Shown here: piece by piece, positions 20,960 through 36,135 of the stretch
Layout of the letters: each line of letters starts with the position of its first letter
Numbering within the stretch: position 1 is the stretch's first letter
Source: Acidobacteriota bacterium
GTDB taxonomy: Bacteria; Acidobacteriota; UBA6911
Direction: 5' to 3'
Assembly: GCA_016929335.1 (NCBI GenBank)
Contig: JAFGIY010000065.1
Span: forward strand, 62,001 to 126,000
Length of the DNA: 64,000 nt
The notes under the pieces: model-generated
What the model was told of the DNA's origin: nothing
Databases searched by the model: none
What the model saw: the letters and a program-made list of their open reading frames with translations, nothing else
Program-made: the position numbers and the translations under genes

Positions 20960-22105
20960 ATGGGACTTGATTGGATGCCGAGAGAACACGGTAAAAAGGA
21001 TCATTATCGATTTGGCTCGGAACACTGGGGGACGGAAGCCCCCTGTGTTGTATATGAGAAGAAGCCTTTAAAAGATCCTAAGGGGAATGTCGTTCCCGGA
21101 CTTTTTGTGTCCTGGATCAGGCTCAATAATCCTGCTCAATATAATTCCTACACGACGGAGATGGTAAAAGGAGTCATTGCCGGGTTTGAAAATTCCTCTG
21201 TGGACCGGGAAGTGGTCGCGACGGTTTTTACGGGAACCGGAGCCAATGCCTTCTGTACGGGGGGCAATACCAAGGAATATTCGGAATATTACAGCAAGCG
21301 GCCCGAGGAATACGGGGCCTATATGGAACTCTTCAACAACATGGTGGATTCCATCCTGATGTGCAAGAAACCGGTTATCTGCCGCGTTAACGGCATGAGA
21401 GTCGCCGGAGGACAGGAAATCGGACTGGCTTGCGATATTGCAATTTCGTCGGACCTTGCAATATTTGGGCAGGCCGGTCCGAGACACGGATCCGCTCCCG
21501 TGGGCGGCGCTTCCGATTTCCTGCCCTGGTATCTCACCGCAGAAGATGCCATGTGGAACTGCATTAGCTGCGAAATGTGGAGCGCCTATAAAATGAAAGC
21601 CAAGAACCTTGTATCCAAAGTGGTTCCGGTGCTGAAAGATGAAAATGGGAAATGGGTGCGCAATCCGCAGGTCATCACCGATGCCTTTGTGCAGGATGGA
21701 GAAATTGTCTATGGCGAATATAAGACCGGCGATGAATTTAAGAAAGCCAGGGCATGGGTAAGCGACAAACTGAAAAACAACGACTACGATCTTTCGCTTC
21801 TTGATGCCGAGATCGACAAGACTGTGTGGACCTTTGCAAACCTTTTTCCGGGCTGCCTGATGATGTCGATTGACGGAGTACGGAACAAGAAGAAATTTTT
21901 CTGGGATCAAATGAAAAATCCAAACCGGCACTGGCTGGCTGCCAATATGATGGGCGAAGCCTTCCTGGGTTTCGGAGCTTTCAATACAAAGAAAATTACG
22001 AGCCTCGATACGGTTGATTTTCTCAAATATCGCCAACTCGTGGCCGAGGGGGCTCTTGTGGATGATGATTTTATGGATAAAGTAATGGCGAAACCGAAGC
22101 AATAG
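20960..22105 (+). CDS. bamA: 6-oxocyclohex-1-ene-1-carbonyl-CoA hydrolase
   Basis: Ring-opening hydrolase of the anaerobic benzoyl-CoA pathway. It adds water and hydrolytically cleaves 6-oxocyclohex-1-ene-1-carbonyl-CoA to 3-hydroxypimeloyl-CoA. Enoyl-CoA hydratase superfamily, but with the long BamA form (381 residues) and its typical segments: LDWMPREHG, FVSWIRLNNPAQYNSYTTEM, TGTGANAFCTGGNTKEYSEYY, VNGMRVAGGQEIGLACD and FGQAGPRHGSAPVGGASDFL. AAGGAG lies 6 nt before the ATG. It leads the catabolic block; a 104-nt spacer separates it from the dehydrogenase gene. Confidence 0.95.
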   Translation: MGLDWMPREHGKKDHYRFGSEHWGTEAPCVVYEKKPLKDPKGNVVPGLFVSWIRLNNPAQYNSYTTEMVKGVIAGFENSSVDREVVATVFTGTGANAFCTGGNTKEYSEYYSKRPEEYGAYMELFNNMVDSILMCKKPVICRVNGMRVAGGQEIGLACDIAISSDLAIFGQAGPRHGSAPVGGASDFLPWYLTAEDAMWNCISCEMWSAYKMKAKNLVSKVVPVLKDENGKWVRNPQVITDAFVQDGEIVYGEYKTGDEFKKARAWVSDKLKNNDYDLSLLDAEIDKTVWTFANLFPGCLMMSIDGVRNKKKFFWDQMKNPNRHWLAANMMGEAFLGFGAFNTKKITSLDTVDFLKYRQLVAEGALVDDDFMDKVMAKPKQ

Positions 22106-22209: not shown

Positions 22210-23259
22210 ATGGCCGTCACTGCTCAAGCATATGTTCTGGAGTCTCCGAAGGCTCCGTTAGTACGCAAGCCCTTGCAGGTGCCCACTCCCGGAGCAACAG
22301 AAGCCATCGTGGAGGTAATTGCGTGTGGCCTGTGTCACACGGATCTGGGCTATGCAGATGGGTCCGTTCCGACGAAAAAGGGCATCCCTATCGTCCTTGG
22401 ACACGAAGGCGTCGGACGCGTCGTTGAAGCCGGAAAGGATTATGAATCTCTCGTCGGCAGCACCGTTCTGGTGCCGGCAGTCCTTCCCTGCGGAGAATGT
22501 CCATTCTGCCTGGCGGGGCGAGGGAATGCATGCCCGAATCAAAAAATGCCGGGTAACGATATCGATGGAGCATTTTCGACTCACTTCCTGGTACCTGCCC
22601 GCCCGCTGATCAAGATAGGCGCTTCATCCAATGTTGCGGCGCTTTCGGTCGTGGCTGACGCAGTGTCCACCGCGTATCAGGCTATCCTTCGAGCCAATGT
22701 CACCGCCGGCGATGCGGTAGTTGTTGTCGGGTCCGGCGGAGTGGGAAGTTTTGTTGTCCAGATTGCCAATGCACTGGGCGCCCGCGTACTTGCCTGTGAT
22801 ATCGTTGAGGAGCGCCTGAAACTTATTTCGGATTATGGAGCTTCACAAACCATAAACCTGACAAACCTGGATCCGAAAGAACTCCGCAAACAGGTCCGAG
22901 CGTTTGCCAAAGGCGTGCCTACGCTGAAATATAAGATTTTTGAATGCAGCGGAAGCGCACCGGGTCAGACTACGGCCTATGGATTGCTGGAACGCGGAGC
23001 CACGATGATGCAGGTGGGATACACTCCGAACAAGATCGATGTGCGGCTTTCGAACCTCATGGCATTTGATGCCACGCTGCACGGCACCTGGGGTTGTCCT
23101 CCCGAGGTATATCCGGGAGTCCTGCGTATGATCGAGGAAGGCAAAGTGAAACTGGGTCCTTTCATTGCTTATGGGCCGATGTCCAAGGTGAATGACTATC
23201 TTGCGGATATGGCTGCGCACAAGCTTGAAAAGCGCATGGTGATGGATCCACTCACCTAG
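22210..23259 (+). CDS. bamQ: 6-hydroxycyclohex-1-ene-1-carbonyl-CoA dehydrogenase
   Basis: Zinc-dependent MDR alcohol dehydrogenase that oxidises the 6-hydroxy compound to the 6-oxo substrate of BamA, with NAD+. 349 residues. Catalytic zinc: C42-H43 and H65-E66 (LGHEGVGRVVEAG). Structural zinc: C94, C97, C100 and C108. Rossmann VVVGSGGVGSFVVQIANALGA follows. C-terminal GATMMQVGYTPNKIDVRLSNLMAFDATLHGTWGCPPE is characteristic of this subfamily. GGAGAGG precedes the ATG. The assignment rests on family resemblance plus the bamA/bamR neighbours. Confidence 0.9.
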   Translation: MAVTAQAYVLESPKAPLVRKPLQVPTPGATEAIVEVIACGLCHTDLGYADGSVPTKKGIPIVLGHEGVGRVVEAGKDYESLVGSTVLVPAVLPCGECPFCLAGRGNACPNQKMPGNDIDGAFSTHFLVPARPLIKIGASSNVAALSVVADAVSTAYQAILRANVTAGDAVVVVGSGGVGSFVVQIANALGARVLACDIVEERLKLISDYGASQTINLTNLDPKELRKQVRAFAKGVPTLKYKIFECSGSAPGQTTAYGLLERGATMMQVGYTPNKIDVRLSNLMAFDATLHGTWGCPPEVYPGVLRMIEEGKVKLGPFIAYGPMSKVNDYLADMAAHKLEKRMVMDPLT

Positions 23260-23366
23260 GAGTCGCCGGTTTCCGTTTCCCGGCCCGCAGTTTAAATGCC
23301 TGAATTTTGTTGGAGAACCGGGAACTGGAAATACGGAACCGGGAACTTCATACGAAAGGAGTTAAT

Positions 23367-24161
23367 ATGGCTGCAGAATCAACTTCCCCAATCGTGGATG
23401 TGACTCTCCTCGAAGATGAGACGCTGCTTCGGCTGGTACTGAACCGTCCCAAGGGGAATGTCCTTACGCTGGAAATGATGAATGCGATTTCCGACGCGCT
23501 GCGAGCAAATGTCCATAATCCACATTTGCGATTAGTATTCATTCGCGGCGCCGGAAGTCATTTTTCTTTTGGGGCATCCGTTGAGGAACATACAAAGGAG
23601 AAGGCCCCCTCGATGCTGGCCGGCTTTCATGCAATGATCCGTCAGGTCGCCGGCTATCCCGTGCCGATAGCTGCCCTGATTGAAGGATCATGCCTGGGCG
23701 GTGCATTCGAGCTTATCCTTGCATGTCATTTCGTGTTTGCGGCTCCGAACGCCACTCTGGGCTGTCCCGAAATCAAACTTGGAGTCTTTCCACCGGTGCT
23801 TGCCGCTATAGGAGCTCACCGTTTGGGCGGTCCGCTGGCCGAAAACCTCGTTATGACGGGGGCAACAATAGATACCGCGGCTGCTGAAAAAGCCGGCCTC
23901 GTTTCAGCAATTTTCGCCAGTGGCAATAGCGAGGAGGAGTTGGTGGAATGGTATCGCAAAAACCTCCGCCCGCTTTCGGCATCCGCAATACGCCAGGGAA
24001 ATCGCGTAGCGCGTATCGGCTCCGGCCTTCTAACGGCGCTGGATGAGCCGCTGGCCAGAATTGAGCGGCAGTATGTCGACGAGGTGCTTGCCAGCAACGA
24101 CGGCAATGAAGGGATTACGGCCTTCATTGAACGCCGTAAGCCAGTTTGGAAGGATTCCTAG
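23367..24161 (+). CDS. bamR: Cyclohexa-1,5-diene-1-carbonyl-CoA hydratase
   Basis: Crotonase-family enzyme adding water to the dienoyl-CoA made by benzoyl-CoA reductase, giving the 6-hydroxy intermediate for BamQ. 264 residues. LRLVLNRPKGNVLTLEMM, oxyanion-hole GAGSHFSFGASVEEH and EGSCLGGAFELILACHFVFAA are seen. AAAGGAG is 6 nt before the ATG at 23367. The frame is open back to 23307, but that stretch is a GGAACCGGGAACT-type microrepeat and is not counted. A strong terminator follows. Confidence 0.9.
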   Translation: MAAESTSPIVDVTLLEDETLLRLVLNRPKGNVLTLEMMNAISDALRANVHNPHLRLVFIRGAGSHFSFGASVEEHTKEKAPSMLAGFHAMIRQVAGYPVPIAALIEGSCLGGAFELILACHFVFAAPNATLGCPEIKLGVFPPVLAAIGAHRLGGPLAENLVMTGATIDTAAAEKAGLVSAIFASGNSEEELVEWYRKNLRPLSASAIRQGNRVARIGSGLLTALDEPLARIERQYVDEVLASNDGNEGITAFIERRKPVWKDS

Positions 24162-24203
24162 GCGAGCATGCCGAATAGCCTCCACAATCAGATCCTGCCG
24201 GCG

Positions 24204-24259
24204 CCACAGGTTTCACGGATTTCGATGAAGTGAAATCCATGAAACCTGTGGCATTTTTT
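24204..24259 (+). terminator. Rho-independent terminator after bamR
   Basis: 20-nt arms at 24204-24223 and 24232-24251 pair with one mismatch around an 8-nt loop and are followed by CATTTTTT. It should end the bamA-bamQ-bamR transcript. Confidence 0.87.
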
Positions 24260-24671
24260 CTCTCTTTGTCCGTCTTGGGACTAATTTTGCCCCGTGGTTC
24301 AGAATTTTATTGACAGCTAGAATTTCAATCGACTACCGTAAGGGTAACCAATATCGGTTACCGTATAATGCGAGGGAGGGTAGAAACGCCCGGGCATTGT
24401 GAGTCTTTCGTTCGGTCCGCCTGAGTTTTGTATGGAGGCGTAGGCGGAAATGCTGAGTTTGATTCCCTTGAAGAGTGCTATTGGTGCAAGGGCGATTATC
24501 CATTTGCCCTGAAGCGCACAAACGTATTTGCGCGCTTTGACGCGTGGTTCTTCAGAGTAGCTTTTTTTGCCGAATGCGGATATAAGTGGAGCATAGTTTT
24601 TAGAAATCCCGATTTGAAGAATCATAACGCAGTGGTCCAACAATAAACTCCATTTTCCGGAGGGCAAAACA
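24260..24671. other. 412-bp intergenic before the SDR gene
   Basis: No recognisable gene. A 72-codon TTG-initiated frame (24428-24646, +) and a long minus frame that runs into the SDR gene lack family features or a ribosome-binding site. It contains the promoter/operator candidate at 24343-24369. Confidence 0.5.
24343..24369 (+). promoter_or_regulatory. palindrome abutting a TATAAT box
   Basis: GGTAACC (24343-24349) and GGTTACC (24356-24362) form an inverted repeat ending 1 nt before TATAAT (24364-24369). TACCGTA also occurs as a direct repeat here. A regulator bound there would sit over the promoter. The likely target is the SDR-thiolase genes, with a leader of about 300 nt. Confidence 0.4.
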
Positions 24672-25415
24672 GTGGAACTTGAAGGAAAAGTGGCGATCGT
24701 TACGGGGGCAAGTCTGGGAATCGGCAGTGCATGCGCACTGGACCTTGCCAAAAACGGCGCTAATGTCGCCATCAACTATCGCAAGCATGATGCGGAGGCG
24801 CGTGCAATTTGCGATCAAATCAATGCTATGGGAAGGCGCGGACTGGCGGTTCGTGCGGATGTGGCCAGTTTTCAGGATGCACAGGAAATGGTGGCTACCG
24901 TTGTGAAGGAATTTGGGCGCATCGATATTCTGGTAAACAATGCCGGGGTGAATCGTGATGCTGTGATTTGGAAAATGACGGAGCAGCAATGGGATGAAGC
25001 CCTGGACATCAATCTCAAGGGCTATTTCAACTATATTCGCGCGGTCGCCCCTTTGTTCAAGGAGCAGGGCAGCGGAAAGATCGTTAATGTAACGTCCATA
25101 AACGGCTTGCGCGGCAAATTCGGTCAGGCAAATTACACGGCCGCCAAGGCTGGAATCATCGGGCTGACAAAAACCGTGGCAAGGGAACTCGCAAAATCCA
25201 ACGTCAACTGCAATGCAGTTGCGCCCGGCCTGATTGAAACCGACATGGTCAGGCAGGCTCCCGATGATGTCCGGCAGAAGGCGCTTGCCGAAATTGTTCT
25301 TGGAAGGATGGGACAGCCGGAGGAGGTTGCCTGGTTAGTGACTTTCCTGTGCACCGAAAAAGCCCGTCATGTGACGGGAGAGGTAATCAAAGTGGATGGG
25401 GGGCAGTATATCTGA
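24672..25415 (+). CDS. SDR-family 3-oxoacyl/3-hydroxyacyl reductase (FabG-like)
   Basis: NAD(P)-dependent short-chain dehydrogenase, 247 residues. TGASLGIG cofactor loop (11-18), NNAG at 89-92, catalytic N114, S142, Y155 and K159, and C-terminal GEVIKVDGGQYI. GTG start with GGAGG 8 nt upstream. It looks like FabG, but it is next to a thiolase and a CoA-transferase rather than fatty-acid synthesis genes. A 3-hydroxyacyl-CoA dehydrogenase role (3-hydroxypimeloyl-CoA, or a BbsCD-like substrate) is therefore inferred. Confidence 0.82.
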   Translation: MELEGKVAIVTGASLGIGSACALDLAKNGANVAINYRKHDAEARAICDQINAMGRRGLAVRADVASFQDAQEMVATVVKEFGRIDILVNNAGVNRDAVIWKMTEQQWDEALDINLKGYFNYIRAVAPLFKEQGSGKIVNVTSINGLRGKFGQANYTAAKAGIIGLTKTVARELAKSNVNCNAVAPGLIETDMVRQAPDDVRQKALAEIVLGRMGQPEEVAWLVTFLCTEKARHVTGEVIKVDGGQYI

Positions 25416-25533: not shown

Positions 25534-26703
25534 ATGGGCAGAGTGGCTATTATCGGTGTAGGCCAGACACCGTTTGTTCGGGGCTATCCCGGATCCATCA
25601 GGGAACTGGCTTTTGAAGGTTTTAAAGATTGCATGGCCGATGCGCAGATAGCCATCAAGGATATTGACGCATCAGTAGTCTGTTCCGCTCCCGAATATGA
25701 TAAACAGCGGTCACCATCCGGAGTATTTGCAGAATATCTCGGTCTTACGCCTCAGCCGACATTTTACGTCGAAAGCCTTTGTTCTTCGAGCAGTACCGGG
25801 GTGAAGCTGGCCTATGCAATGATCAAGTCCGGTCTGCATGATATTGTGGCCGTCATAGGTTTTCAGAAAATGTCGGAAATCTCTTCGGCGGAATCCCAGG
25901 AAAGAATGGGACGCGGTACGGACGTTCAATGGGAAAGCCCTTTTGGGACAATGATGCCGGCCTATTATGCGATGTTTGCCAAGGCTCATATGGAGAAATA
26001 TGGCACAACGCTGGAAGACCTGGCGCTCATACGGGTTAAGGCATCGACGTACGGTCAGGTCAATGATAAGGCCGTTTATCGGAAAGCTGTGACACTGGAC
26101 ATGTTTTCCGATCCTCAGAATCCAATGTCAGGACCCGTGGCAAGCCCTCTCAGGGTTGGCGACTGCTGTGCCAATGCTGACGGATGCTCCTGCCTCATTC
26201 TGGCCAGCGAAGAAAAGGCAAAAGCGCTATGCAGGAAGCCGGTCTGGATACTTGGGATCGGCGCCGCATCTGCGCCCGTGAACATGGCCGGCAGAAAGGT
26301 ATTCACCGGACTGGATGTGGCGGATATTGCCAGCAAGCAGGCCTATAAAATGGCAGGGATTACACCCAAAAACATCAATGTCGCGGAGGTCCACGATTGC
26401 TTTACGATCGCAGAAATGATGGCCTATGAAGGTCTGGGCTTTGCCAAACCGGGTGAAGGCAAAGACCTCATCCAAAGCAAAGAAACCTACAAGGAAGGAA
26501 GCATTCCCGTTAATGTCGATGGAGGCCTGCTTTCCAAAGGGCACCCGATCGGCGCCACCGGCGGTTCGCAGATCCGGACCATTGTGCTGCAGCTGAGGGG
26601 AGAGGCCGGAGACATACAGGTCAAAAATCCGGAGATCGGTCTGGTCCATAACATCGGCGGTGTGGGCCTTTATGCAAACATCACCATTCTCGGGAGGGCG
26701 TAA
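25534..26703 (+). CDS. SCP2-type thiolase (BbsB-like acetyl-CoA acetyltransferase family)
   Basis: 389 residues. The nucleophile C83 lies in VESLCSSSSTGVKLAY; His residues lie in VAEVHDCFTIAEMMAYE and in SKGHPIGATGGSQ. The usual C-terminal CxG is replaced by LVHNIGGVGLYAN, as in lipid-transfer/SCP2-type thiolases. It would cleave a 3-oxoacyl-CoA with CoA. GGGGGAGG precedes the ATG. The stop is 1 nt from the DUF35 gene; such pairs form one enzyme complex, as in benzoylsuccinyl-CoA thiolase BbsAB. Possible substrates are 3-oxopimeloyl-CoA or an aryl-substituted 3-oxoacyl-CoA. Confidence 0.88.
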   Translation: MGRVAIIGVGQTPFVRGYPGSIRELAFEGFKDCMADAQIAIKDIDASVVCSAPEYDKQRSPSGVFAEYLGLTPQPTFYVESLCSSSSTGVKLAYAMIKSGLHDIVAVIGFQKMSEISSAESQERMGRGTDVQWESPFGTMMPAYYAMFAKAHMEKYGTTLEDLALIRVKASTYGQVNDKAVYRKAVTLDMFSDPQNPMSGPVASPLRVGDCCANADGCSCLILASEEKAKALCRKPVWILGIGAASAPVNMAGRKVFTGLDVADIASKQAYKMAGITPKNINVAEVHDCFTIAEMMAYEGLGFAKPGEGKDLIQSKETYKEGSIPVNVDGGLLSKGHPIGATGGSQIRTIVLQLRGEAGDIQVKNPEIGLVHNIGGVGLYANITILGRA

Positions 26704-26704
26704 C

Positions 26705-27136
26705 ATGGCCAAAAAGGAAGTCGACGATCGATTCAAAAAATTCGGCACTGTGAGTTTCACGGCTATAACGAAGACAAACGATTTCGTCGGGCATCTGGAA
26801 CAGGGCAAAATCATGGGGACCAAATGCAAAAAATGCGGCCTTCAGTTTTTCCCTCCGAGAGCGGACTGCTATCAGTGCCTAGCCAGCGATATGGAATGGT
26901 TTGAAGTCGGTGGCGCGGGCAAGCTTATGGCGTATAGCAAACTTCAATATGGCCCGATGGGTTTCGAAGGGGATCTTCCATATTGCATAGCCGTTTTGGA
27001 TTACGGCAATTTTAAAGTCTTCGGCAGAATCGCCAAAGATATTCCGGACGAAGAAATCCACATAGGCATGGAAATGAAAGCGGTGGCAAACAAGTTGCCG
27101 AACGACCAATTGAATTACGTTTTTCAAAAGGCTTAG
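26705..27136 (+). CDS. DUF35 OB-fold / zinc-ribbon thiolase partner (BbsA-like)
   Basis: 143 residues. A rubredoxin-like zinc ribbon with CKKCG and CYQC pairs (about residues 39-57) is followed by an OB-fold (GKLMAYSKLQYGPMGFEGD...PYCIAVLDYGNFKVFGRI). These proteins bind SCP2-type thiolases and are thought to admit acyl-CoA to the active site. The ATG at 26705 has GGGAGGG overlapping the thiolase 3' end; the upstream extension to 26660 is thiolase code in another frame. Confidence 0.88.
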   Translation: MAKKEVDDRFKKFGTVSFTAITKTNDFVGHLEQGKIMGTKCKKCGLQFFPPRADCYQCLASDMEWFEVGGAGKLMAYSKLQYGPMGFEGDLPYCIAVLDYGNFKVFGRIAKDIPDEEIHIGMEMKAVANKLPNDQLNYVFQKA

Positions 27137-27211: not shown

Positions 27212-28417
27212 ATGAGATTTTGCATGGAAGGTTTATTAGCCGGTATACGCGTCCTGGACCTCTCCCGAGTTTTGGCCGGTCCTTACTGCTCTATGATGCT
27301 GGGAGACCTCGGCGCCGACATCATCAAGATCGAGCGCCCCGGCATTGGCGATGAAACAAGGCATTGGGGCCCGCCTTTCGCCGCGCCGGGCGAAAGCGCC
27401 TATTTCCTTTGCGTAAACCGCAACAAACGAAGCATCACCGTCGACCTGAAAAAGCCTGCCGGTATTGAAATCATCAAAGCTTTGGTGGGCAAGTGCGACG
27501 TTGTCCTTGAGAATTTTGCTCCCGGCACGATGGAGGATCTGGGTCTCGGCTATGAAATTCTGCGCTCTATTCATCCTGGGATCATTTACTGTTCTATAAC
27601 CGGCTATGGTCCCGATGGACCCTTCAGCCGTCGCGCCGGCTACGATCTGGCGGTCTCGGCTTTTGGAGGCCTTATGGGCATTACGGGCGAGCCGGACGGT
27701 CCGCCCGTCAAGGTCGGTGTCGCCATTACCGATGTTGCCACGGGGCTTTCAGCGCAAGGCGCTATCTGCGCCGCACTCTATGCGAGGGAAAAGACAGGGC
27801 AGGGACAGCGTATTGATCTGTCTCTGCTGGAAACTCAAGTCTCGGCTCTGGTGAATATAGCAAGTTCCTATCTGATATCCGGTGAGATCCCCAAAAGATG
27901 GGGAACCGCCCATGAGACCATCGTTCCCTATCAGGGATTTGAGACTAAAGACAAGTATGTGATTGTGGCGGTTGGCAACGATCAGCTTTGGAACCGGTTC
28001 TGCAAGGTTATAGGCAAGCCCGAGTTGGCCGAGGATCCGCGCTTTAAAACGAATCCGCTCCGGGTTCAAAACCGCAAAGAATGCATAGGAATCCTTGCCC
28101 CGATAATGAAAACGCGTCAGCGGGACGAGTGGGTGAAACTGCTGAACGATGAGGCAATCCCCTGTGCTCCCATCAATACCATGGATGAGGTTTTCCAGAA
28201 TCCTCAAGTCCTTCATCGCAATATGCTTGCGGAAGTGGACCATCCTAAGGCCGGAAAAATCAAGCTGGTCGGGATTCCGGTTAAGTATTCCGAAGCCAAA
28301 GCGGCTATTCGCCGGCCTCCTCCTCTTCTGGGAGAACACACGCGCGAGATACTCAGGGAAGTTCTGGGATGCGATGATAATCGCATTGAGGAATTAAGGT
28401 CTGCGGGAGTGATATAA
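27212..28417 (+). CDS. Class III (CaiB/BaiF) CoA-transferase
   Basis: 401 residues. GIRVLDLSRVLAGPYCSMMLGDLGADIIKIE is the family N-terminus (in two halves of the active-site groove); D174 in AITDVATG matches the catalytic aspartate that forms acyl-CoA anhydrides. SITGYGPDGP and TGEPDGPPVK are also typical. It would move CoA between acids; the substrate is unknown. Toluene degraders use a BbsEF pair of this family for benzylsuccinate, while here there is a single subunit. An in-frame ATG at 27224 (MEGLLAGIR) is an equally good start. A perfect palindrome abuts the 5' end. Confidence 0.88.
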   Translation: MRFCMEGLLAGIRVLDLSRVLAGPYCSMMLGDLGADIIKIERPGIGDETRHWGPPFAAPGESAYFLCVNRNKRSITVDLKKPAGIEIIKALVGKCDVVLENFAPGTMEDLGLGYEILRSIHPGIIYCSITGYGPDGPFSRRAGYDLAVSAFGGLMGITGEPDGPPVKVGVAITDVATGLSAQGAICAALYAREKTGQGQRIDLSLLETQVSALVNIASSYLISGEIPKRWGTAHETIVPYQGFETKDKYVIVAVGNDQLWNRFCKVIGKPELAEDPRFKTNPLRVQNRKECIGILAPIMKTRQRDEWVKLLNDEAIPCAPINTMDEVFQNPQVLHRNMLAEVDHPKAGKIKLVGIPVKYSEAKAAIRRPPPLLGEHTREILREVLGCDDNRIEELRSAGVI

Positions 28418-28489: not shown

Positions 28490-29113
28490 TCAAAGCTTGC
28501 CCAGCCGGAGCTCCCTGCGCAGAAGCGCATTCATAGAAGTGAAATCCCCCACTTCCTTATGGAATGCTGCCGCATCGGATATTGTTCTTTCCGTTATGTA
28601 TCGGTTGATGCGCCATTTCAACTCAAACGGCAGCGGCCGGTCTTCAACAGTGTCCAGGACGAGATGTTCCGGATCGCCGTAGATCGGGAAACGCCGGGCA
28701 ACCATGCGAGCTGCCTCCGGTTCGGACACGCCGTTGCTTTGAACAAGATTCTCAAACAGCAATATGCGGTTCATTTCGTCGACTCTGCATATCATGCGAC
28801 GTTCCAGATCATGCATGTTCCACCACAGGGCGATATCCTTGTCGGTAACGCCCTCGGCTCTCTTGGGAGCGAAGGCGTTTCTGACTTTTTCATCGCTCTG
28901 TTCTCGTTCCAGAAGAATATCGCCGAACGATTCAGGGAAGCGATCGGTGCCTTCCCTTTGTGCCGCTTCTTTCTGTTCCTGCGCCAAAGCTTTGAAAATT
29001 TCGCGCGCAGCTTCTTCAGGCATGCTCATGGATTCCTGAAAAAGAGAGACATACTGCGGTTCCAACCGCTTTTCAATTTCCGCCCAATCGGGCTTTTTCG
29101 CCGGGTCGTTCAA
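28490..29113 (-). CDS. Conserved-looking hypothetical protein, helical and charged
   Basis: 207 residues, no family recognised. It is rich in Glu, Lys, Arg and Ala with amphipathic helices (for example AAREIFKALAQEQKEAAQRE), no signal peptide, no membrane helix and no cysteine cluster. The one aromatic-rich segment is near ALWWNMHDLERRM. TTG start with GAGGA 7 nt upstream; an in-frame ATG lies at codon 29. The opposite-strand frame here is longer but has Cys/His/Phe-rich shadow composition. It sits antiparallel between the CoA-transferase and the molybdoenzyme genes. Confidence 0.62.
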   Translation of the reverse strand: MNDPAKKPDWAEIEKRLEPQYVSLFQESMSMPEEAAREIFKALAQEQKEAAQREGTDRFPESFGDILLEREQSDEKVRNAFAPKRAEGVTDKDIALWWNMHDLERRMICRVDEMNRILLFENLVQSNGVSEPEAARMVARRFPIYGDPEHLVLDTVEDRPLPFELKWRINRYITERTISDAAAFHKEVGDFTSMNALLRRELRLGKL

Positions 29114-29255: not shown

Positions 29256-29284
29256 TTGACGCCCCAAGTCGGCGCTTTTATAAT
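29256..29284 (+). promoter_or_regulatory. near-consensus sigma-70 promoter for the molybdoenzyme operon
   Basis: TTGACG (29256-29261), 17-nt spacer, TATAAT (29279-29284). The expected transcript start near 29291 gives a leader of about 95 nt to the ATG at 29387. It is the best-looking housekeeping promoter in the window. Confidence 0.68.
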
Positions 29285-29386: not shown

Positions 29387-32059
29387 ATGGCTGTTACCAA
29401 TACATCCAAAGTCCAGGAAGATGTCTGGATCCCCACCTGTTGCGGTGATTGCTATTGCATGTGCGGAATCAAGGTCCGACGTCAGAACGGCGTTGTGACG
29501 GAGATAGAGGGGAATCCGGATGCTCCGACGGGACGCGGCAAAATCTGTGTCAAGGGTCTGGCGGCGCCACAGCTTCTATATGACCCGTACCGGTTGAACT
29601 ACCCTCTGAAGCGAACCAATCCACAGAAAGGCATCGGAGTAGATCCCAAGTTTGTGCGCATTTCCTGGGAAGAGGCTCTCGATACCATAATCAAGAAACT
29701 GAAAGCTTGTCAGGAAAAGGATCCGCGAGGCGTATATTTTCAGGCCACGACCACGCAGGCGTCCGAGATTCGATTCGGAGTCATCGGATTCATGAAGGCT
29801 TTCGGAACGCCAAATTACTGGGTGTCCGGCGGAGGTCTTCATTGCGGCAACGGCGCTCATTTCATGAACGGCATCATGCATGTTGCCTGGTCTATCATCC
29901 CTGATTTTGCGCACTGCAATCTTCCCTTGAATTTCGGCTGTTCCAAAGGTCATGGCGCCGGGCATGTCGCAGTCCAGAACGCAACTCAAGCCGCCGACGC
30001 TCGTGCCCGTGGGTCCAGAACAATCACTTTCGATCCGATGCAGAGCGCACAGGCTTCCAAAGCCCATGAATGGGTTCCGCTCCGTGTCGGCACGGACGGT
30101 GCGCTGGCCCTGGGACTGGTGAATGTTCTGTTGAATGAGCTCGGAGTCTGGGATGACGAATATCTGAAATATAAAACCAATGGTCCTTATTTGGTCCGTC
30201 CCTCGGATGGCCGGTACATGCGGGACAAATCAACCGGCAAGCCCGTTGTATGGGATCTGGTGGATAAGTGTCCCAAGGTTCACAATGATCCGTCGGTGAC
30301 CCGTGTTCAGTATGAGGATCAGGCCCATGATGTTGCTTTGTTGGGCACTTACGAGGTCGATGGCGTAAAATGCCGTCCTGGTTTCGAACTGCTCAAGGAG
30401 CACGTGAAAAGATATACTCCGGAGTATGTGGAAAAGATCACCTGGGTGCCTGCGGCTACCATCCGCCGCATAGCCAAAGAAATTGTCGATAATGTGGAAA
30501 TCGGCTCCATTGTCACCATCCAGACGGATCAGGGCCCGAAAAAGATACCGAAACGGCCGATTGCAGCCCACTTTTTCCGGGGGGCTCAAGGCCATGTCAA
30601 TTCGGGATGGACCTGCCTTTCCATAGACATGATCAATCACATGGTCGGAGCGGCTGACACTTACGGTTCCGCACTCGGTTTGGGCGCGGCAGTCGGCGAC
30701 GGGTACAAACCGACCGGGAAGCCGTATCAGATCCCATACCCCGATGAAGACGGCCTGCTTGTCTGCAAGGCCTGGGTCTATGATCACGTGCCATATCCGC
30801 TGCGCGTACCCAAGCCTCCAACCCGGCTTGATCTGCACGATATGTTTCCTACCTCGATCTACAATGCATTTACCATTACGAGCCCCCGTTGGTTTGAGCT
30901 GCTGGATCAGTTCAAAATCCCCTACAAGCCGGACATCATGATTAATTTCGGATCCAATTCAGTCATGACCATGGGGAATTCCGAGATTGTGACCGAGAAC
31001 TTTCTGAAGAAGTTCAATTTCATCCTTTCGTTCCAGCTTTATGTCACGGAGTTTGAGGAAGCGGTAGCCGATATTGTTCTGCCGGACACCTGTTTCCTCG
31101 AACGCTACACTCCTGCAGTGAGTTTCCCATCCACTTTCTCGCACCCGACGGGTGAAGATGATTGGGGTTGGACAATCCGACAGCCGGTGATTGAGCCGAT
31201 GTATGAACGGCGGGATTTCAACGTAGTCATGATGGATATATGCAAGCGGCTCGGCATTCTCCACAAGTATTACAAAGGATTAAACGATGCCGTCGTCATG
31301 CGTTACGGCGGAGCCATGAGCGAGGAATACAAACTCTGCGAGGACGGCAGTGTCGAGCATTCGTGGGAAGAAGTCTGCGACCGGCTTCTTAAAGACAGGT
31401 TCGGTCCGGAGCACGGGCTTGAGCATGTCCGCAAAAAGGGCGTGTTCACATGGCCGAAACGCAAGGAAGACGTATACTGGAAATGGTTTAATCCCTCAAG
31501 AGTGCCGGTATATTTCGAATACTTCATCGATGCCGGAGAAAAAATATCCAAATTGTGGAATCAGTTCGACGGGAAAAAGTTCTTTGATTTGGATTGGTCG
31601 GTATTCAAACCGCTCCCGGATTGGTATCCCTGTCCGACTCATACGGAGAAAAACGAGGAATTTGACATGTATGCGTTTTATTGGCGCGCTGTCATGCATT
31701 GCAATTCCATGACTCAGCAGATCCCCTGGCTGGACGAAATATCCCAGGAAGATCCCTTTGTCTACGGCGTCCAGGTTCATCAAAAAATTGCCGGGGAAAA
31801 AGGGATCAAAGATGGCGATAGAATCTGGCTCGAAAATCCCGAAGGCAAACGCATCAAGGGCTGGGCCGCGCTTACAGACGGGATAGAGCCGCACCACCTG
31901 GCTATCGCCGCTATATCCGGTCATTGGGGGGAATTTACTCCGATTGCCAAAGGCAAGGGAGCATTTTTCAATGATCTTGTCATGATGGACAAATCGCACA
32001 CGGATCCCCTGACTTTAAACCAGGATATCTGTTGCCGCGTGAAGATATACAAGGCGTAA
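29387..32059 (+). CDS. Molybdopterin oxidoreductase large subunit (PadB-like)
   Basis: 890-residue DMSO-reductase-family catalytic subunit with bis-guanine-dinucleotide molybdenum cofactor. The N-terminal [4Fe-4S] site is C19-x2-C22-x3-C26 and C54. C153 in GGGLHCGNGAH is the probable Mo ligand. There is no Tat signal before the cluster (MAVTNTSKVQEDVW), so the protein should stay in the cytoplasm, unlike PsrA/PhsA-type relatives. Size, lack of export signal and FeS/NrfD partners match phenylacetyl-CoA:acceptor oxidoreductase PadB, which oxidises a CoA thioester. The exact substrate here is inferred from the neighbouring CoA-ester genes. AGGAA lies 6 nt before the ATG. Confidence 0.85.
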   Translation: MAVTNTSKVQEDVWIPTCCGDCYCMCGIKVRRQNGVVTEIEGNPDAPTGRGKICVKGLAAPQLLYDPYRLNYPLKRTNPQKGIGVDPKFVRISWEEALDTIIKKLKACQEKDPRGVYFQATTTQASEIRFGVIGFMKAFGTPNYWVSGGGLHCGNGAHFMNGIMHVAWSIIPDFAHCNLPLNFGCSKGHGAGHVAVQNATQAADARARGSRTITFDPMQSAQASKAHEWVPLRVGTDGALALGLVNVLLNELGVWDDEYLKYKTNGPYLVRPSDGRYMRDKSTGKPVVWDLVDKCPKVHNDPSVTRVQYEDQAHDVALLGTYEVDGVKCRPGFELLKEHVKRYTPEYVEKITWVPAATIRRIAKEIVDNVEIGSIVTIQTDQGPKKIPKRPIAAHFFRGAQGHVNSGWTCLSIDMINHMVGAADTYGSALGLGAAVGDGYKPTGKPYQIPYPDEDGLLVCKAWVYDHVPYPLRVPKPPTRLDLHDMFPTSIYNAFTITSPRWFELLDQFKIPYKPDIMINFGSNSVMTMGNSEIVTENFLKKFNFILSFQLYVTEFEEAVADIVLPDTCFLERYTPAVSFPSTFSHPTGEDDWGWTIRQPVIEPMYERRDFNVVMMDICKRLGILHKYYKGLNDAVVMRYGGAMSEEYKLCEDGSVEHSWEEVCDRLLKDRFGPEHGLEHVRKKGVFTWPKRKEDVYWKWFNPSRVPVYFEYFIDAGEKISKLWNQFDGKKFFDLDWSVFKPLPDWYPCPTHTEKNEEFDMYAFYWRAVMHCNSMTQQIPWLDEISQEDPFVYGVQVHQKIAGEKGIKDGDRIWLENPEGKRIKGWAALTDGIEPHHLAIAAISGHWGEFTPIAKGKGAFFNDLVMMDKSHTDPLTLNQDICCRVKIYKA

Positions 32060-32123
32060 GGAGAGACAGAGGACCCGTGAACGCATCGCTGCTGGCACTG
32101 GTCAATTTAAACTGGAGTGGAAT

Positions 32124-32750
32124 ATGGCACGTTACGGAATGGTAATAGACCTGAAAAGATGCTACGGCTGCTATGCCTGCGTGCTGGCATGCAAAGTAGA
32201 GAACCGGACGCCGCCCGGCGTATTCTGGAGCCGGATTCTGAAAGGCGAAATGGGCGTTTTCCCCAACACAGTCCGGCAGGCGCTGCCGGTGCTGTGTATG
32301 CAATGCGAGCAGCCGGACTGCTTGAAAGTATGTCCTACAGGCGCGACGTATCAGACAGAAGATAAAATCGTGCGTATAGACAAGGACAAATGCATTGGCT
32401 GCAAATACTGCATGATGGCATGCCCTTACGGCGCGCGCTATTCAGTACGGGAATGGGAAAGCTATTTCCCGGAAGGGCTTCCTCTCAGCCCGTACGAAGA
32501 GCACTGCAAGCAGGTGTGGGAAGAGAAATCCGGGACCGGAGTGTCGACGAAGTGTGATTTCTGCATCGACAGGCGCGCGCAGGGGAAAGAACCGGCCTGC
32601 GTGCAGGCCTGTCCAGCCAAAGCGCGGGTTTTTGGCGATCTTGACGACCCGAACAGCGAGATATCGTATCTGATCAAGACAAAACGCGGTTTTGTCTTGC
32701 GGCCTGAGGTCGGTACCGAGCCCAAAGTATATTATCTGCCTCCGAGGTAG
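32124..32750 (+). CDS. Four-cluster ferredoxin subunit (PadC / DmsB / PsrB type)
   Basis: 208 residues carrying electrons between the Mo subunit and the membrane subunit. Four cysteine groups are visible: CYGCYACVLAC near 12-22, CMQCEQPDCLKVCP, CIGCKYCMMACP, and CDFCIDRRAQGKEPACVQACP, enough for four [4Fe-4S] clusters. No signal peptide, consistent with a cytoplasmic complex. TGGAG 7 nt before the ATG. Spacers are 64 nt from the Mo gene and 51 nt to the membrane subunit. Confidence 0.9.
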   Translation: MARYGMVIDLKRCYGCYACVLACKVENRTPPGVFWSRILKGEMGVFPNTVRQALPVLCMQCEQPDCLKVCPTGATYQTEDKIVRIDKDKCIGCKYCMMACPYGARYSVREWESYFPEGLPLSPYEEHCKQVWEEKSGTGVSTKCDFCIDRRAQGKEPACVQACPAKARVFGDLDDPNSEISYLIKTKRGFVLRPEVGTEPKVYYLPPR

Positions 32751-32801
32751 GTTTCATTGCGGCTCCCGGAAAACAGACAAAGTTGCGGATAGGAGAATTC
32801 T

Positions 32802-33746
32802 ATGGGATCAGCAAAAATGGAAGGCCAGGTTCAGGTAGAGTGGCGCTGGCTAATCGCCGCATATCTCTTTCTCGCCGGTGTCGGCGGCGGGGCTTACCTG
32901 GCCGGTGTCATAGCCGACTTTGCCGGCGGCGCGGAATGGACAACCGTATCAAAGATCGGAGTGTTTCTGGGTATGCCCTGTGTTCTCATAGGCTGCCTGT
33001 TTCTGCTTGCGGATCTGGGCACACCGATCAATTCCTGGAGGGTCTGGATGAAGCCGAAGACCTCCTGGATAGCACGGGGAACAATCATCATTGTTCTTTT
33101 CATGATCTTTGCCGCCATACAAACCGCCTTTTGGATCTGGCCTTTCCCCGGATCAATTGAGAACGCCCGTGGCGTTATAGCCATCCTGGGTGCTGTTTTC
33201 GGATTTCTCACGGTGATTTATACGGGGCTTTTACTCGGATACAGCCAGCCCATTGCCCTATGGAGAACAGCGCTCCTGCCGGTGCTGTTCTTCGTTTCAG
33301 CCATGTCGACAGGAATAATGGCGATCATCCTGGCCGGCCTCTTCTTGGGAGTTGCGGAAAATTATCTCGCTCTCCTGGCTAAGATCGATGCCGCTATTCT
33401 GGTTCTCGAGTTGTTTGTTCTGGTCGTCTTCATTTACAACGCTTACAGAACAATCGAATCGAGATTCTCGGCCAAGCGAATTCTTTCGGGACCCGTCGCA
33501 CCGGCTTTCTGGCTGGGCGTTATTGCGTGCGGACTGGTCATCCCGTTTCTCCTGGATTTGCTGGCAGGACACGGGAGTGCGGCCGCTGTTGCCTCGATTC
33601 TGGGCCTGTTCGGTGGGCTTTGCCTCCGGTTTTCGATATTGGCGGCCGGGACACTCGACCCCTTAACAGCGGGCGGATTCGAATTTGCGAGGATCGACCG
33701 GCCGAAAGATCCAATGCCTGCAATAGGGAAACTGCCGCCAAGCTAA
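32802..33746 (+). CDS. NrfD/PsrC-type membrane anchor (PadD-like)
   Basis: 314-residue integral membrane subunit of about eight helices. It starts with the NrfD signature YLFLAGVGGGAYLAG (about 25-40); DLGTPINSWRVWMKPKTSWIARG and FFVSAMSTGIMAIILAG follow. It should pass electrons to quinone. AGGAG 5 nt before the ATG. It ends the three-gene operon in front of a large terminator. Confidence 0.9.
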   Translation: MGSAKMEGQVQVEWRWLIAAYLFLAGVGGGAYLAGVIADFAGGAEWTTVSKIGVFLGMPCVLIGCLFLLADLGTPINSWRVWMKPKTSWIARGTIIIVLFMIFAAIQTAFWIWPFPGSIENARGVIAILGAVFGFLTVIYTGLLLGYSQPIALWRTALLPVLFFVSAMSTGIMAIILAGLFLGVAENYLALLAKIDAAILVLELFVLVVFIYNAYRTIESRFSAKRILSGPVAPAFWLGVIACGLVIPFLLDLLAGHGSAAAVASILGLFGGLCLRFSILAAGTLDPLTAGGFEFARIDRPKDPMPAIGKLPPS

Positions 33747-33773: not shown

Positions 33774-33847
33774 AGGGACGCTTCCCGATTTCTCGCGGGC
33801 CGGCAAACGGCCTAGACAAAAGCGAGAGAGGGGATCGTCCCTTTTTT
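33774..33847 (+). terminator. large branched terminator after the molybdoenzyme operon
   Basis: AGGGACG (33774-33780) pairs with CGTCCCT (33836-33842), TCTCGC (33791-33796) with GCGAGA (33822-33827), and GGCCG (33798-33802) with CGGCC (33808-33812). A run of six T (33842-33847) follows. Confidence 0.82.
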
Positions 33848-33883
33848 CGCGATGTACTTTTTATATTTTGGTGTCTCGAGTTC

Positions 33884-33892: not shown

Positions 33893-33981
33893 TCTGTTTG
33901 ATGCCAGGTAAGATTCGGAATTCAAAACCCCCCATTTTTAAGCCGGTAAGTCCACAGGATCAATTCAAAGGAATCATTAAA

Positions 33982-36135
33982 GTGACTAAAGCAGAACAAC
34001 TTAAGACAATATTTGCTCCCCGTTCGGTTGCCGTCATTGGTGCTTCTGCCAAACAGCAGAGCCTTGGCCGCGCGGTTTTTGCCAACCTGCTTTTCGCGGG
34101 CTATAGCGGCTGCGTTTACCCGGTCAATACAAAAGCCAAAAGCGTTCTGGGTGTGCGCGCGTATCCCTCTGTCCTGGATATCCCGGATGAAGTGGACCTG
34201 GCGGTTGTTCTGGTTCCCGCAGGCATGGTTCCGAACGTTCTGAAGGATGCAGGACGCAAAGGGTGTAAAGGCGCAATTGTAATCACCGCAGGTTTCAAGG
34301 AGATAGGCAGGCAGGGCGCAGAATTGGAGCAGCAGCTGCGCGAAGTCGCGCAGAGCCACGGCATGGCGGTTATCGGGCCGAACTGTTTCGGCGTCATCAA
34401 TACCGATCCGTCCGTCTCGCTCAATGCGACCTTTTCCCGGAGCTTTCCTCTGATGGGAAAGATCGCCTTTATCTCGCAGAGCGGTGCGGTCGGCGTGGCT
34501 GCGCTGGAATACGCTGCCGGGCGAAAGATCGGATTTTCCAAATTCGTATCAATAGGAAATAAGGTGGATATACACGAGAATCACCTGCTGGAAGCGCTGG
34601 CCGAGGATCCGATGACCGATGTGATTCTCCTGTATGTGGAGGATCTGGAAAATCCCAAGGAATTCATCAACCTGGCAAGGAAAATTTCGGAAAAAAAGCC
34701 TATTCTCGCAGTCAAATCCGGGCGGACTTCAGAAGGAGCGAAAGCGGCCGCGTCTCATACCGGTGCTCTTTCCGGATCCGATGACGTGTATGATACGCTC
34801 TTTGCCCAATGCGGGGTTCTTCGTGTGGAGACGCTTGAAGAGCTGTTTCGTTTTGGGATTGCATTCGCCAATCAACCGCTGCCTCGAGGCCGCAGAGTGG
34901 CAATTGTAACCAACGCAGGCGGACCGGGAATTATGGCGACTGATGCCGCCGTGCGGCATGGCCTGGAACTTGCTGTCCTGACACCCAAATCGATATCGAT
35001 CCTTCAAGCCAATCTCCCTCCGACCGTCAGCCTGAACAATCCGGTGGATCTGGTCGGAGATGCCGACGAAATCCGTTACCAGCTGGCGATGCAGGCGGTG
35101 CTGGCGGATGACAACGTGGACAGCGTCGTCGCTATCTGCGTTCCTCAGATGCTGACTAATCTGGAAGCCACGTCCAAAATGATCGCGCAGCAGGTGAAGT
35201 TTTCTGATAAGCCGGTCTCTGCAGTTTACATGGCAACGGGAGATATCGAAAGCTCGCTGAAAATTCTGGAAGACGCCCAGATTCCCAGCTACCGGTTCCC
35301 GGAGGATGCAGCACGCGCTCTGGGAGCCATGTCCCGCTACGTTCTTTGGAGGAAGCGACCGCGCACGGAGGTAGTTCATTTTGACGATGTCCAACCCGAC
35401 ACGGTGCGCAAAATCATTGCAAAGGCAAAAAGCGAAGGGCGGCGATTCCTGCCGGAACCGGAGGCGCACGCCGTTCTGAGCGCATATGGATTGCCGATGT
35501 CCCGCTCGATTCATGCTCAAAACGAAACCGAGGCGGTCCATGCCGCGAAGCAGATCGGTTTTCCTGTCGTCATGAAAATTATTTCTCCGCAGATTGTGCA
35601 TAAGGTGGATGTGGGCGGTGTCCGGCTGAACCTGCAGTCTGAGGCGGATGTTAAGTCGGCATACGCTGACCTGATTCAGCGCGTAAAAACGGCCCAGCCG
35701 GGCGCAGAAATCTGGGGCGTTCTGATTCAGGAAATGGTTCGCGGCGGTAAGGAGACAATCCTGGGCATGAAGCGCGATCCGCATTTTGGCGCTCTGCTGA
35801 TGTTCGGTCTGGGGGGTATCTATGTGGAAGTCTTTAAAGATGTTGTTTTCCGCATCGCGCCCATCCGGGAACTCGGCGCGCGCCACATGATTGAACGGAT
35901 CAAAGGGATCAAACTCCTCAAGGGATTCCGGGGCGAGCCTCCGTCTGATGTTGATGCCATTGCCCAATCTCTGATGCGCCTTTCTCAACTGGTAACCGAA
36001 TTCCCCGAGATCGAAGAAATGGACATCAATCCCTTGATTGTCCTCCCGGCCGGGTCCGGCGCAAGAGTGGTCGATGCACGCATCCTCATAGAAGCGAATG
36101 AACATCCCACCGCGGAGTTCAAGGACCCGGCATAA
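33982..36135 (+). CDS. ADP-forming acyl-CoA synthetase (fused alpha-beta)
   Basis: Interconverts acyl-CoA + ADP + Pi with acid + CoA + ATP; in fermentative or syntrophic metabolism it usually yields ATP. 717 residues from the GTG at 33982. The N-terminal CoA-binding half has SVAVIGASAKQQSLG and the phospho-histidine segment AAASHTGALSGSDDVYD. The C-terminal ATP-grasp half has HAVLSAYGLP, PVVMKIISPQIVHKVDVGGV and MDINPLIV. AAAGGA precedes the GTG. The 28 extra codons back to 33898 contain microrepeat-like sequence and are judged untranslated. The acyl substrate is unknown; acetyl-, glutaryl- or aryl-acetyl-CoA would fit the cluster. Confidence 0.88.
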   Translation: MTKAEQLKTIFAPRSVAVIGASAKQQSLGRAVFANLLFAGYSGCVYPVNTKAKSVLGVRAYPSVLDIPDEVDLAVVLVPAGMVPNVLKDAGRKGCKGAIVITAGFKEIGRQGAELEQQLREVAQSHGMAVIGPNCFGVINTDPSVSLNATFSRSFPLMGKIAFISQSGAVGVAALEYAAGRKIGFSKFVSIGNKVDIHENHLLEALAEDPMTDVILLYVEDLENPKEFINLARKISEKKPILAVKSGRTSEGAKAAASHTGALSGSDDVYDTLFAQCGVLRVETLEELFRFGIAFANQPLPRGRRVAIVTNAGGPGIMATDAAVRHGLELAVLTPKSISILQANLPPTVSLNNPVDLVGDADEIRYQLAMQAVLADDNVDSVVAICVPQMLTNLEATSKMIAQQVKFSDKPVSAVYMATGDIESSLKILEDAQIPSYRFPEDAARALGAMSRYVLWRKRPRTEVVHFDDVQPDTVRKIIAKAKSEGRRFLPEPEAHAVLSAYGLPMSRSIHAQNETEAVHAAKQIGFPVVMKIISPQIVHKVDVGGVRLNLQSEADVKSAYADLIQRVKTAQPGAEIWGVLIQEMVRGGKETILGMKRDPHFGALLMFGLGGIYVEVFKDVVFRIAPIRELGARHMIERIKGIKLLKGFRGEPPSDVDAIAQSLMRLSQLVTEFPEIEEMDINPLIVLPAGSGARVVDARILIEANEHPTAEFKDPA

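Follow-up and report, generated by a model that had tools for sequence, protein, structure and literature searches.

A Pad-related molybdenum or tungsten oxidoreductase complex associated with benzoyl-CoA genes in about a dozen bacterial phyla

Most of what is known about the anaerobic degradation of aromatic compounds comes from a small number of cultured denitrifiers and iron- or sulfate-reducing bacteria. Complexes of the PsrABC/PhsABC type combine a molybdenum (Mo) subunit, exported by the twin-arginine translocation (Tat) system, with a four-cluster ferredoxin and an NrfD-type membrane anchor; SoeA-like enzymes have a cytoplasmic build. The closest described system is PadBCD of Thauera and Aromatoleum, which together with PadJ and PadEFGHI converts phenylacetate to benzoyl-coenzyme A (benzoyl-CoA) (PMC5109826) in a pathway that includes hydrolysis of phenylglyoxylyl-CoA (PMC9765128). 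We analyzed a 64,000-nucleotide stretch of an Acidobacteriota genome (GenBank assembly GCA_016929335.1, contig JAFGIY010000065.1, positions 62,001 to 126,000; hereafter the window) that encodes a complex of three proteins, B, C and D. B-C-D has in common with PadBCD the three-part build of Mo subunit, four-cluster ferredoxin and membrane anchor, the lack of an export signal and a benzoyl-CoA pathway downstream. We give a slightly better than even chance to B-C-D being a Pad-type arylacetyl-CoA:quinone oxidoreductase that is bound to the membrane, faces the cytoplasm, feeds benzoyl-CoA and belongs to a separate, widespread subfamily.

The open reading frames (ORFs) of B-C-D are separated by 64 bases (B to C) and 51 bases (C to D), and they encode the parts listed by the sequence-only reading, which had described a Mo large subunit without Tat signal, a four-cluster ferredoxin and an NrfD anchor. 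B contains the Pfam Molybdopterin, Fe4S4 and dinucleotide-binding domains, and C matches a multi-cluster ferredoxin family. Across 40 full-length B rows 261 residues are invariant, among them the [4Fe-4S] cysteines C19, C22, C26 and C54 and also C153, which aligns with the region of the metal-binding cysteine of PsrA and ArrA; the metal ligand in PsrABC and PhsABC is a cysteine, as proposed here for B. All 16 cluster cysteines of C are likewise invariant in 43 of 43 rows (four shorter rows of the 47-row alignment were excluded from this count). Among 52 B and 47 C rows, which include some cut at the N terminus, none has a Tat-like motif within its first 60 residues, and in the alignment the 40 full-length B rows start too close to the conserved part to accommodate one.

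The relation of B to PadB was assessed using a PadB defined by its operon. In the phylum of the genome carrying locus L055, a B homolog occurs in 11 of 395 genomes (E <= 1e-60), and a search of 203 genomes of this phylum for PadI returned five at E <= 1e-80, of which one (genome G221) lies above the curated cutoff. G221 carries a run of padE, padG, padH and padI, all above curated cutoffs, followed directly by a B homolog and then by an NrfD-type D; C was not read at this locus, where an antisense ORF was picked between the B homolog and D. We took this B homolog as the operon-defined PadB, distinct from the biochemically studied proteins of Thauera and Aromatoleum. Two further genomes (G209 and G226) have PadI-like proteins below the cutoff and B homologs on other contigs. 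In a plasmid search for a named PadB, the best 40 of 414 records were 24-30% identical, and none of these was annotated as PadB.

A careful 29-row tree joins the rows of B and PadB in one clade, apart from PhsA, one SoeA-like protein and two paralogs (support 100/99), and a quick tree of 58 rows also joins B and PadB (support 99), in agreement with the proposed kinship to PadB rather than to PhsA or a SoeA-like enzyme. Within the 29-row tree, one branch (98/95) unites PadB with five kin and the other, weaker one (80/77) comprises the remaining rows with the window's clade, placing the window's B in a sister branch to the PadB subclade and outside the subclade itself. Of the phylogeny suggested by the sequence-only reading, the grouping of B with PadB against PhsA was obtained from trees, whereas PsrA, ArrA and DmsA, like TtrA, lie outside the tree rows and are set apart by curated scores alone. 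Residues C153, G154 and H158 are kept in at least 95% of 49 B and PadB rows (the far rows L117 and L069 excluded), and G154 and H158 are absent from all six outgroup rows.

B is inherited together with genes of the benzoyl-CoA pathway. A marker search covered 49 genomes with B (L046 and L059 are outside this count) and found BamA/Oah above the cutoff in 29, with partial or split matches in three more (G002, G008 and G018). BzdN, a class I reductase subunit, was found at 55% identity or more in 11 of the 17 B genomes without BamA, including a 62-residue fragment (G023) and a cut copy (G029), so that 43 of 49 genomes have BamA/Oah or BzdN when fragments are counted. As a control, 396 genomes were drawn from the window's phylum; 38 have BamA (E <= 1e-90), eight have BzdN (E <= 1e-80, one at only 42% identity), and B is present in 10 at 60% identity or more and in 15 at E <= 1e-60. 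BamA or BzdN occurs in 8 of the 10 genomes with close B versus 36 of the 386 without it (Fisher p = 4.8e-7), BamA alone in 5 of 10 versus 33 of 386 (p = 0.0011), and BamA in 7 of 15 genomes with any B at E <= 1e-60 versus 31 of 381 (p = 1.6e-4), all uncorrected for kinship. Four of the ten close-B genomes belong to the window's genus, including the window's own genome, and two more share another genus; within the window's genus, three of the four genomes carrying B have BamA, compared with none of the six that lack B (p = 0.033). The converse is weak, since close B is missing from 33 of the 38 BamA genomes of this draw.

One scan of genome contigs found B in 51 loci from about twelve phyla, the host metagenome-assembled genomes (MAGs) being labeled Acidobacteria, Phycisphaerae and other Planctomycetes, Myxococcota, Zixibacteria, Latescibacterota, Gemmatimonadota, Electryoneota, Tectomicrobia, Bacteroidetes, Eisenbacteria, Thermodesulfobacteriota and Actinomycetota. 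In best segments, B of these loci is either 72-87% or 58-67% identical to the window's B. Of the 51 loci, 46 have C and 42 have D, and most of the remaining loci end inside the operon; at L013 neither C nor D was found by the same search. In most other loci of the 72-84% group, D shares only about 36-43% identity with its counterpart in the window and is thus far more diverged than B and C (72-82%), which may reflect a rate shift or an old exchange of the anchor. Unrooted trees of B, C and D (39 rows) give the same groups, and exchange of the D subunit was therefore set aside as not shown. B of L053 is frame-shifted, and this locus forms a long branch in the B, C and D trees. Two B matches in genome G453 (L152 and L153, at C1:224151 and C1:1260437) lie about 1 Mb apart and overlap, perhaps because of misassembly.

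Neighbors of B were counted by tblastn in fetched flanks of up to 10 kb (many contigs are shorter, and L044 and L051 are near copies). Among the 51 loci, genes for a family III CoA transferase were found in 20, FdhD in 17, KorA in 9, KorB in 8 (all with KorA), MobA in 8, a protein like the alpha subunit of 4-hydroxybenzoyl-CoA reductase (HBCR) in 7 and a DASS-like transporter in 7. FdhD and KorAB were named by family scans, whereas the names of HdrA-, NuoEFG-, tricarboxylic acid (TCA) cycle-, DASS-, MobA- and DUF35-like neighbors come from visual inspection of N-terminal residues rather than from family searches. KorAB lies near B-C-D in Planctomycetota, Latescibacterota and Bacteroidetes loci. 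In the Bacteroidota locus L125 (contig C82 of genome G036), a second HBCR-like Mo hydroxylase, an acyl-CoA dehydrogenase and KorAB, recognized by eye, lie near BamA and Had-like genes. Five loci (L009:14686-15216, L026, L010, L150 and L151) have a Prok-JAB (JAMM) protease-like gene near D, not found in the window, whose product could process a sulfur carrier for cofactor synthesis. Finally, a ferredoxin-like gene of about 150 codons lies near the complex in six loci (L150:14250-14705, L151, L011, L012, L024 and L053).

In the window, B-C-D adjoins genes of a benzoyl-CoA-type block, as the sequence-only reading had described: oah and had score above curated cutoffs, and a dch-like gene has Dch as its best model at a score below the cutoff (Table 1). 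No benzoyl-CoA reductase gene was seen among the scanned window ORFs, a subset of all window ORFs. Near the start of its contig C60, the same genome encodes a protein that shares 78% identity with a BamB-like protein of G001, a genome of the same genus; these Bam names rest on gene order and family type, as no equivalog or BamB model matched. In G001 the order of the window genes is preserved, with additional genes interspersed, in a single stretch of oah-had-dch, a class II-like reductase run, SDR-thiolase (SDR, short-chain dehydrogenase/reductase), CoA transferase and B-C-D, and UvrD-, GlgC- and HisF-type genes form the outer flank in both genomes. The reductase run of G001, comprising a 668-residue subunit of aldehyde-ferredoxin-oxidoreductase type, a small FeS protein, a TfrB/HdrB-like protein and HdrA- and NuoEFG-like genes, occupies the position of a gap of about 510 bases between dch and SDR in the window (24161-24672). 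At L150, BzdQ, BzdO and BzdN of the class I reductase exceed curated cutoffs, about 4 kb or more from B-C-D.

We propose a route in which an arylacetate would be converted to its CoA ester by the adjacent ADP-forming ligase or the family III CoA transferase. The Mo or tungsten (W) center of B, coordinated by Cys153 and probably also by a sulfido group that FdhD would insert, would then oxidize the alpha carbon of the arylacetyl-CoA to the 2-oxo level with oxygen from water, by analogy with Pad. Electrons would pass from the cluster of B through the four clusters of C, whose motifs are present, to D and on to menaquinone. A 2-oxoacid oxidoreductase, to which no gene of the window's genome is assigned, would convert the arylglyoxylate to benzoyl-CoA or hydroxybenzoyl-CoA, and benzoyl-CoA would be processed by a reductase encoded on another contig and then by Dch, Had and Oah, for which genes are present. 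The parts of B-C-D, its clade and its co-inheritance with benzoyl-CoA genes are observed, whereas its substrate, product, electron acceptor and partner enzymes are inferred.

Several observations weigh against this reading, some of them in favor of a different substrate. B is only 32% identical to operon-defined PadB over 825 columns, and 33 columns are fixed yet different between the window's clade (34 rows) and a four-row PadB clade, many of them near the metal, including columns 122, 145, 157, 168 and 169 and eight within 186-195. The complex shares clade and build with PadBCD but belongs to a separate subfamily, with this low identity and different residues near the Mo ligand. The sequence-only reading had noted missing phenylglyoxylate dehydrogenase genes, which is borne out for PadI, the only one of PadEFGHI searched: the window's genome has no PadI equivalog, its best match being 70.6 bits in the ferredoxin part and 44 bits or less in the thiamine pyrophosphate part against a cutoff of 700. 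PaaK was not found in this genome at E <= 1e-100, and across 50 genomes four had a match at this level and none above the cutoff. KorAB homologs in the window's genome are only distant (39% and 27%), and a KorB at least 48% identical to the L034 protein was found in 12 of 50 genomes. Because the close KorAB of G016 adjoins isocitrate dehydrogenase- and aconitase-like genes (TCA type, by eye), KorAB need not act on arylglyoxylates, and a 'dedicated' KorB was dropped as proof. The HBCR assignment denotes likeness rather than identification, because the alpha subunits score 942 and 852 bits against a cutoff of 995 and their FAD partner fits XdhB better than HBCR beta. In addition, neither BamA nor BzdN was found at the levels used in six of the 49 B genomes (G009, G020, G034, G037, G046, which has a 34% match only, and G048).

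Some of these observations would be accommodated if B-C-D worked like Pad on another CoA ester of the benzoyl-CoA network, of alicyclic, dienoyl or dicarboxylic type, a tentative alternative to which we assign a distinctly lower probability. It would fit the near-metal residues unlike those of PadB and the missing PadI and PaaK equivalogs, as well as the occurrence of B with either reductase class, the DASS-type-looking transporter and the window's CoA transferase, whose nearest relative among solved proteins is succinate-hydroxymethylglutarate CoA transferase. Nevertheless, the window's genome already contains candidate genes for the known steps leading from benzoyl-CoA to the 3-oxoacyl-CoA, and an arylacetate route agrees better with the presence of KorAB and HBCR-alpha-like genes close to B in other phyla. 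We also regard it as rather unlikely that B-C-D, instead of acting on phenylacetyl-CoA, catalyzes a membrane-bound Mo/W step of the anaerobic aromatic network itself that has so far escaped notice, delivering electrons from some aryl or alicyclic CoA ester to quinone; if true, such a step would occur with both reductase classes and would be distributed as a module across about twelve phyla, most of them uncultured.

A sulfur or arsenic oxyanion enzyme of the PhsA/PsrA, SoeA, ArrA or TtrA type, lying beside the aromatic block by chance, is very improbable. The best NCBIfam model for B is PhsA, with 215 bits, and the nearest solved structures are those of PsrA and ArrA, but operon-defined PadB too matches PhsA best (224 bits), and the curated cutoffs are far missed for PhsA (694 bits), ArrA (120 versus 1600 bits) and TtrA (38 versus 1750 bits). 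Although PsrABC/PhsABC have the same three kinds of subunit, B lacks a Tat-like motif, is 26% identical to PhsA and belongs to a separate clade in the tree, in which PhsA and the SoeA-like protein are the rows from these enzyme types. SoeABC-like systems likewise have consecutive genes for Mo subunit, ferredoxin and membrane anchor in addition to their cytoplasmic build, but the SoeA-like protein (a single protein from an Azospirillum plasmid, labeled here from its xsc context) is 28% identical to B and branches outside the B and PadB clade, and its anchor is annotated as DmsC/YnfH type. Co-inheritance of B with benzoyl-CoA genes also argues against a chance association. An AlphaFold model of B built from 36 rows has a mean predicted local distance difference test score (pLDDT) of 69 and a predicted template modeling score of 0.78, and its active-site stretches 147-172 and 186-198, below pLDDT 50, are too poor to judge a CoA pocket. 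Among the 50 Foldseek matches listed for this model, ArrA is best (20% identity in that alignment), and others are perchlorate reductase, ethylbenzene dehydrogenase, formate dehydrogenases, PsrA and acetylene hydratase, which we read as reflecting the superfamily fold only. A 42-row B profile matched six sequences of solved structures at E <= 1e-40, with no PadB among them, and D had no solved relative by phmmer (E <= 0.01).

Comparably improbable is that B-C-D serves benzoyl-CoA reductase by passing electrons into or out of it via quinone instead of catalyzing a peripheral step, since, although B-C-D ends the gene stretch that holds the class II-like reductase run in G001 and lies near class I genes at L150, the invariant residues of B suggest a substrate of its own, a B relative adjoins padEGHI, and most BamA genomes of the phylum draw do without close B.

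The remaining features of the window are listed in Table 1. The sequence-only reading had placed the complex under one strong promoter and one terminator; the promoter is plausible from its match to the consensus, yet sites of this class are at shuffle level in the window (7 versus 6.1 in shuffles), and the terminator is weak, such hairpins being no commoner than in shuffles (7 versus 10.6). Between the CoA transferase and B lies a minus-strand gene that is 71-77% identical across four Acidobacteriota loci, compared to 44-49% for the overlapping plus-strand ORF. Its product has no Pfam match at E <= 10 and gave a helical low-confidence model (pLDDT 54), and a chaperone role was set aside on these grounds.

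Table 1. Features of the window and the evidence for each (coordinates in window positions).
Feature	Coordinates	Strand	Evidence or remark
oah	20960..22105	+	534 bits, curated cutoff 464
had	22210..23259	+	396 bits, curated cutoff 339
dch-like gene	23307..24161	+	best model, yet below cutoff (206 versus 292)
SDR, probable 3-hydroxyacyl-CoA dehydrogenase	24672..25415	+	family scan
Thiolase	25534..26703	+	Pfam and family scans
Small thiolase partner, DUF35 type by eye	26660..27136	+	no NCBIfam match
Family III CoA transferase	27212..28417	+	near B in 20 of 51 loci too
207-residue gene of unknown function, between CoA transferase and B	28490..29113	-	four Acidobacteriota loci, including the window, of those compared
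Sigma-70-like promoter TTGACG-17-TATAAT	29256..29284	+	11/12 matches, 102 bases upstream of B
B, Mo/W-bis-molybdopterin guanine dinucleotide large subunit, 890 residues	29387..32059	+	Pfam domains; Cys153 likely metal ligand
C, four-cluster [4Fe-4S] ferredoxin subunit, 208 residues	32124..32750	+	Pfam, cysteine count
D, NrfD/PsrC-type membrane anchor, 314 residues	32802..33746	+	NrfD Pfam, 8 hydrophobic segments
Weak terminator-like hairpin, poor T tail, downstream of D	33822..33850	+	hairpin scan
NDP(ADP)-forming acyl-CoA ligase, candidate activating enzyme	33898..36135	+	family scans

Among the literature titles and abstract openings listed, none names the subfamily of the window's B, subscription papers being outside that scope. 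Because no NCBIfam release 20 model matches B or operon-defined PadB above its cutoff, and because the main text of a survey of more than 47,000 superfamily homologs contains neither 'padb' nor 'phenylacetyl' (PMC10100899), B appears to be a marker gene overlooked by current annotation. Since close relatives of B-C-D travel with benzoyl-CoA genes in about a dozen phyla, the complex is probably an overlooked entry step of anaerobic aromatic breakdown. The association ties a Pad-type complex to benzoyl-CoA genes in MAGs of Acidobacteriota, Planctomycetota, Zixibacteria, Gemmatimonadota, Myxococcota, Bacteroidota, Latescibacterota and others and, if the proposed function is correct, oxidation of arylacetates derived from phenylalanine, tyrosine and lignin sources would be a common entry into this metabolism in uncultured bacteria.

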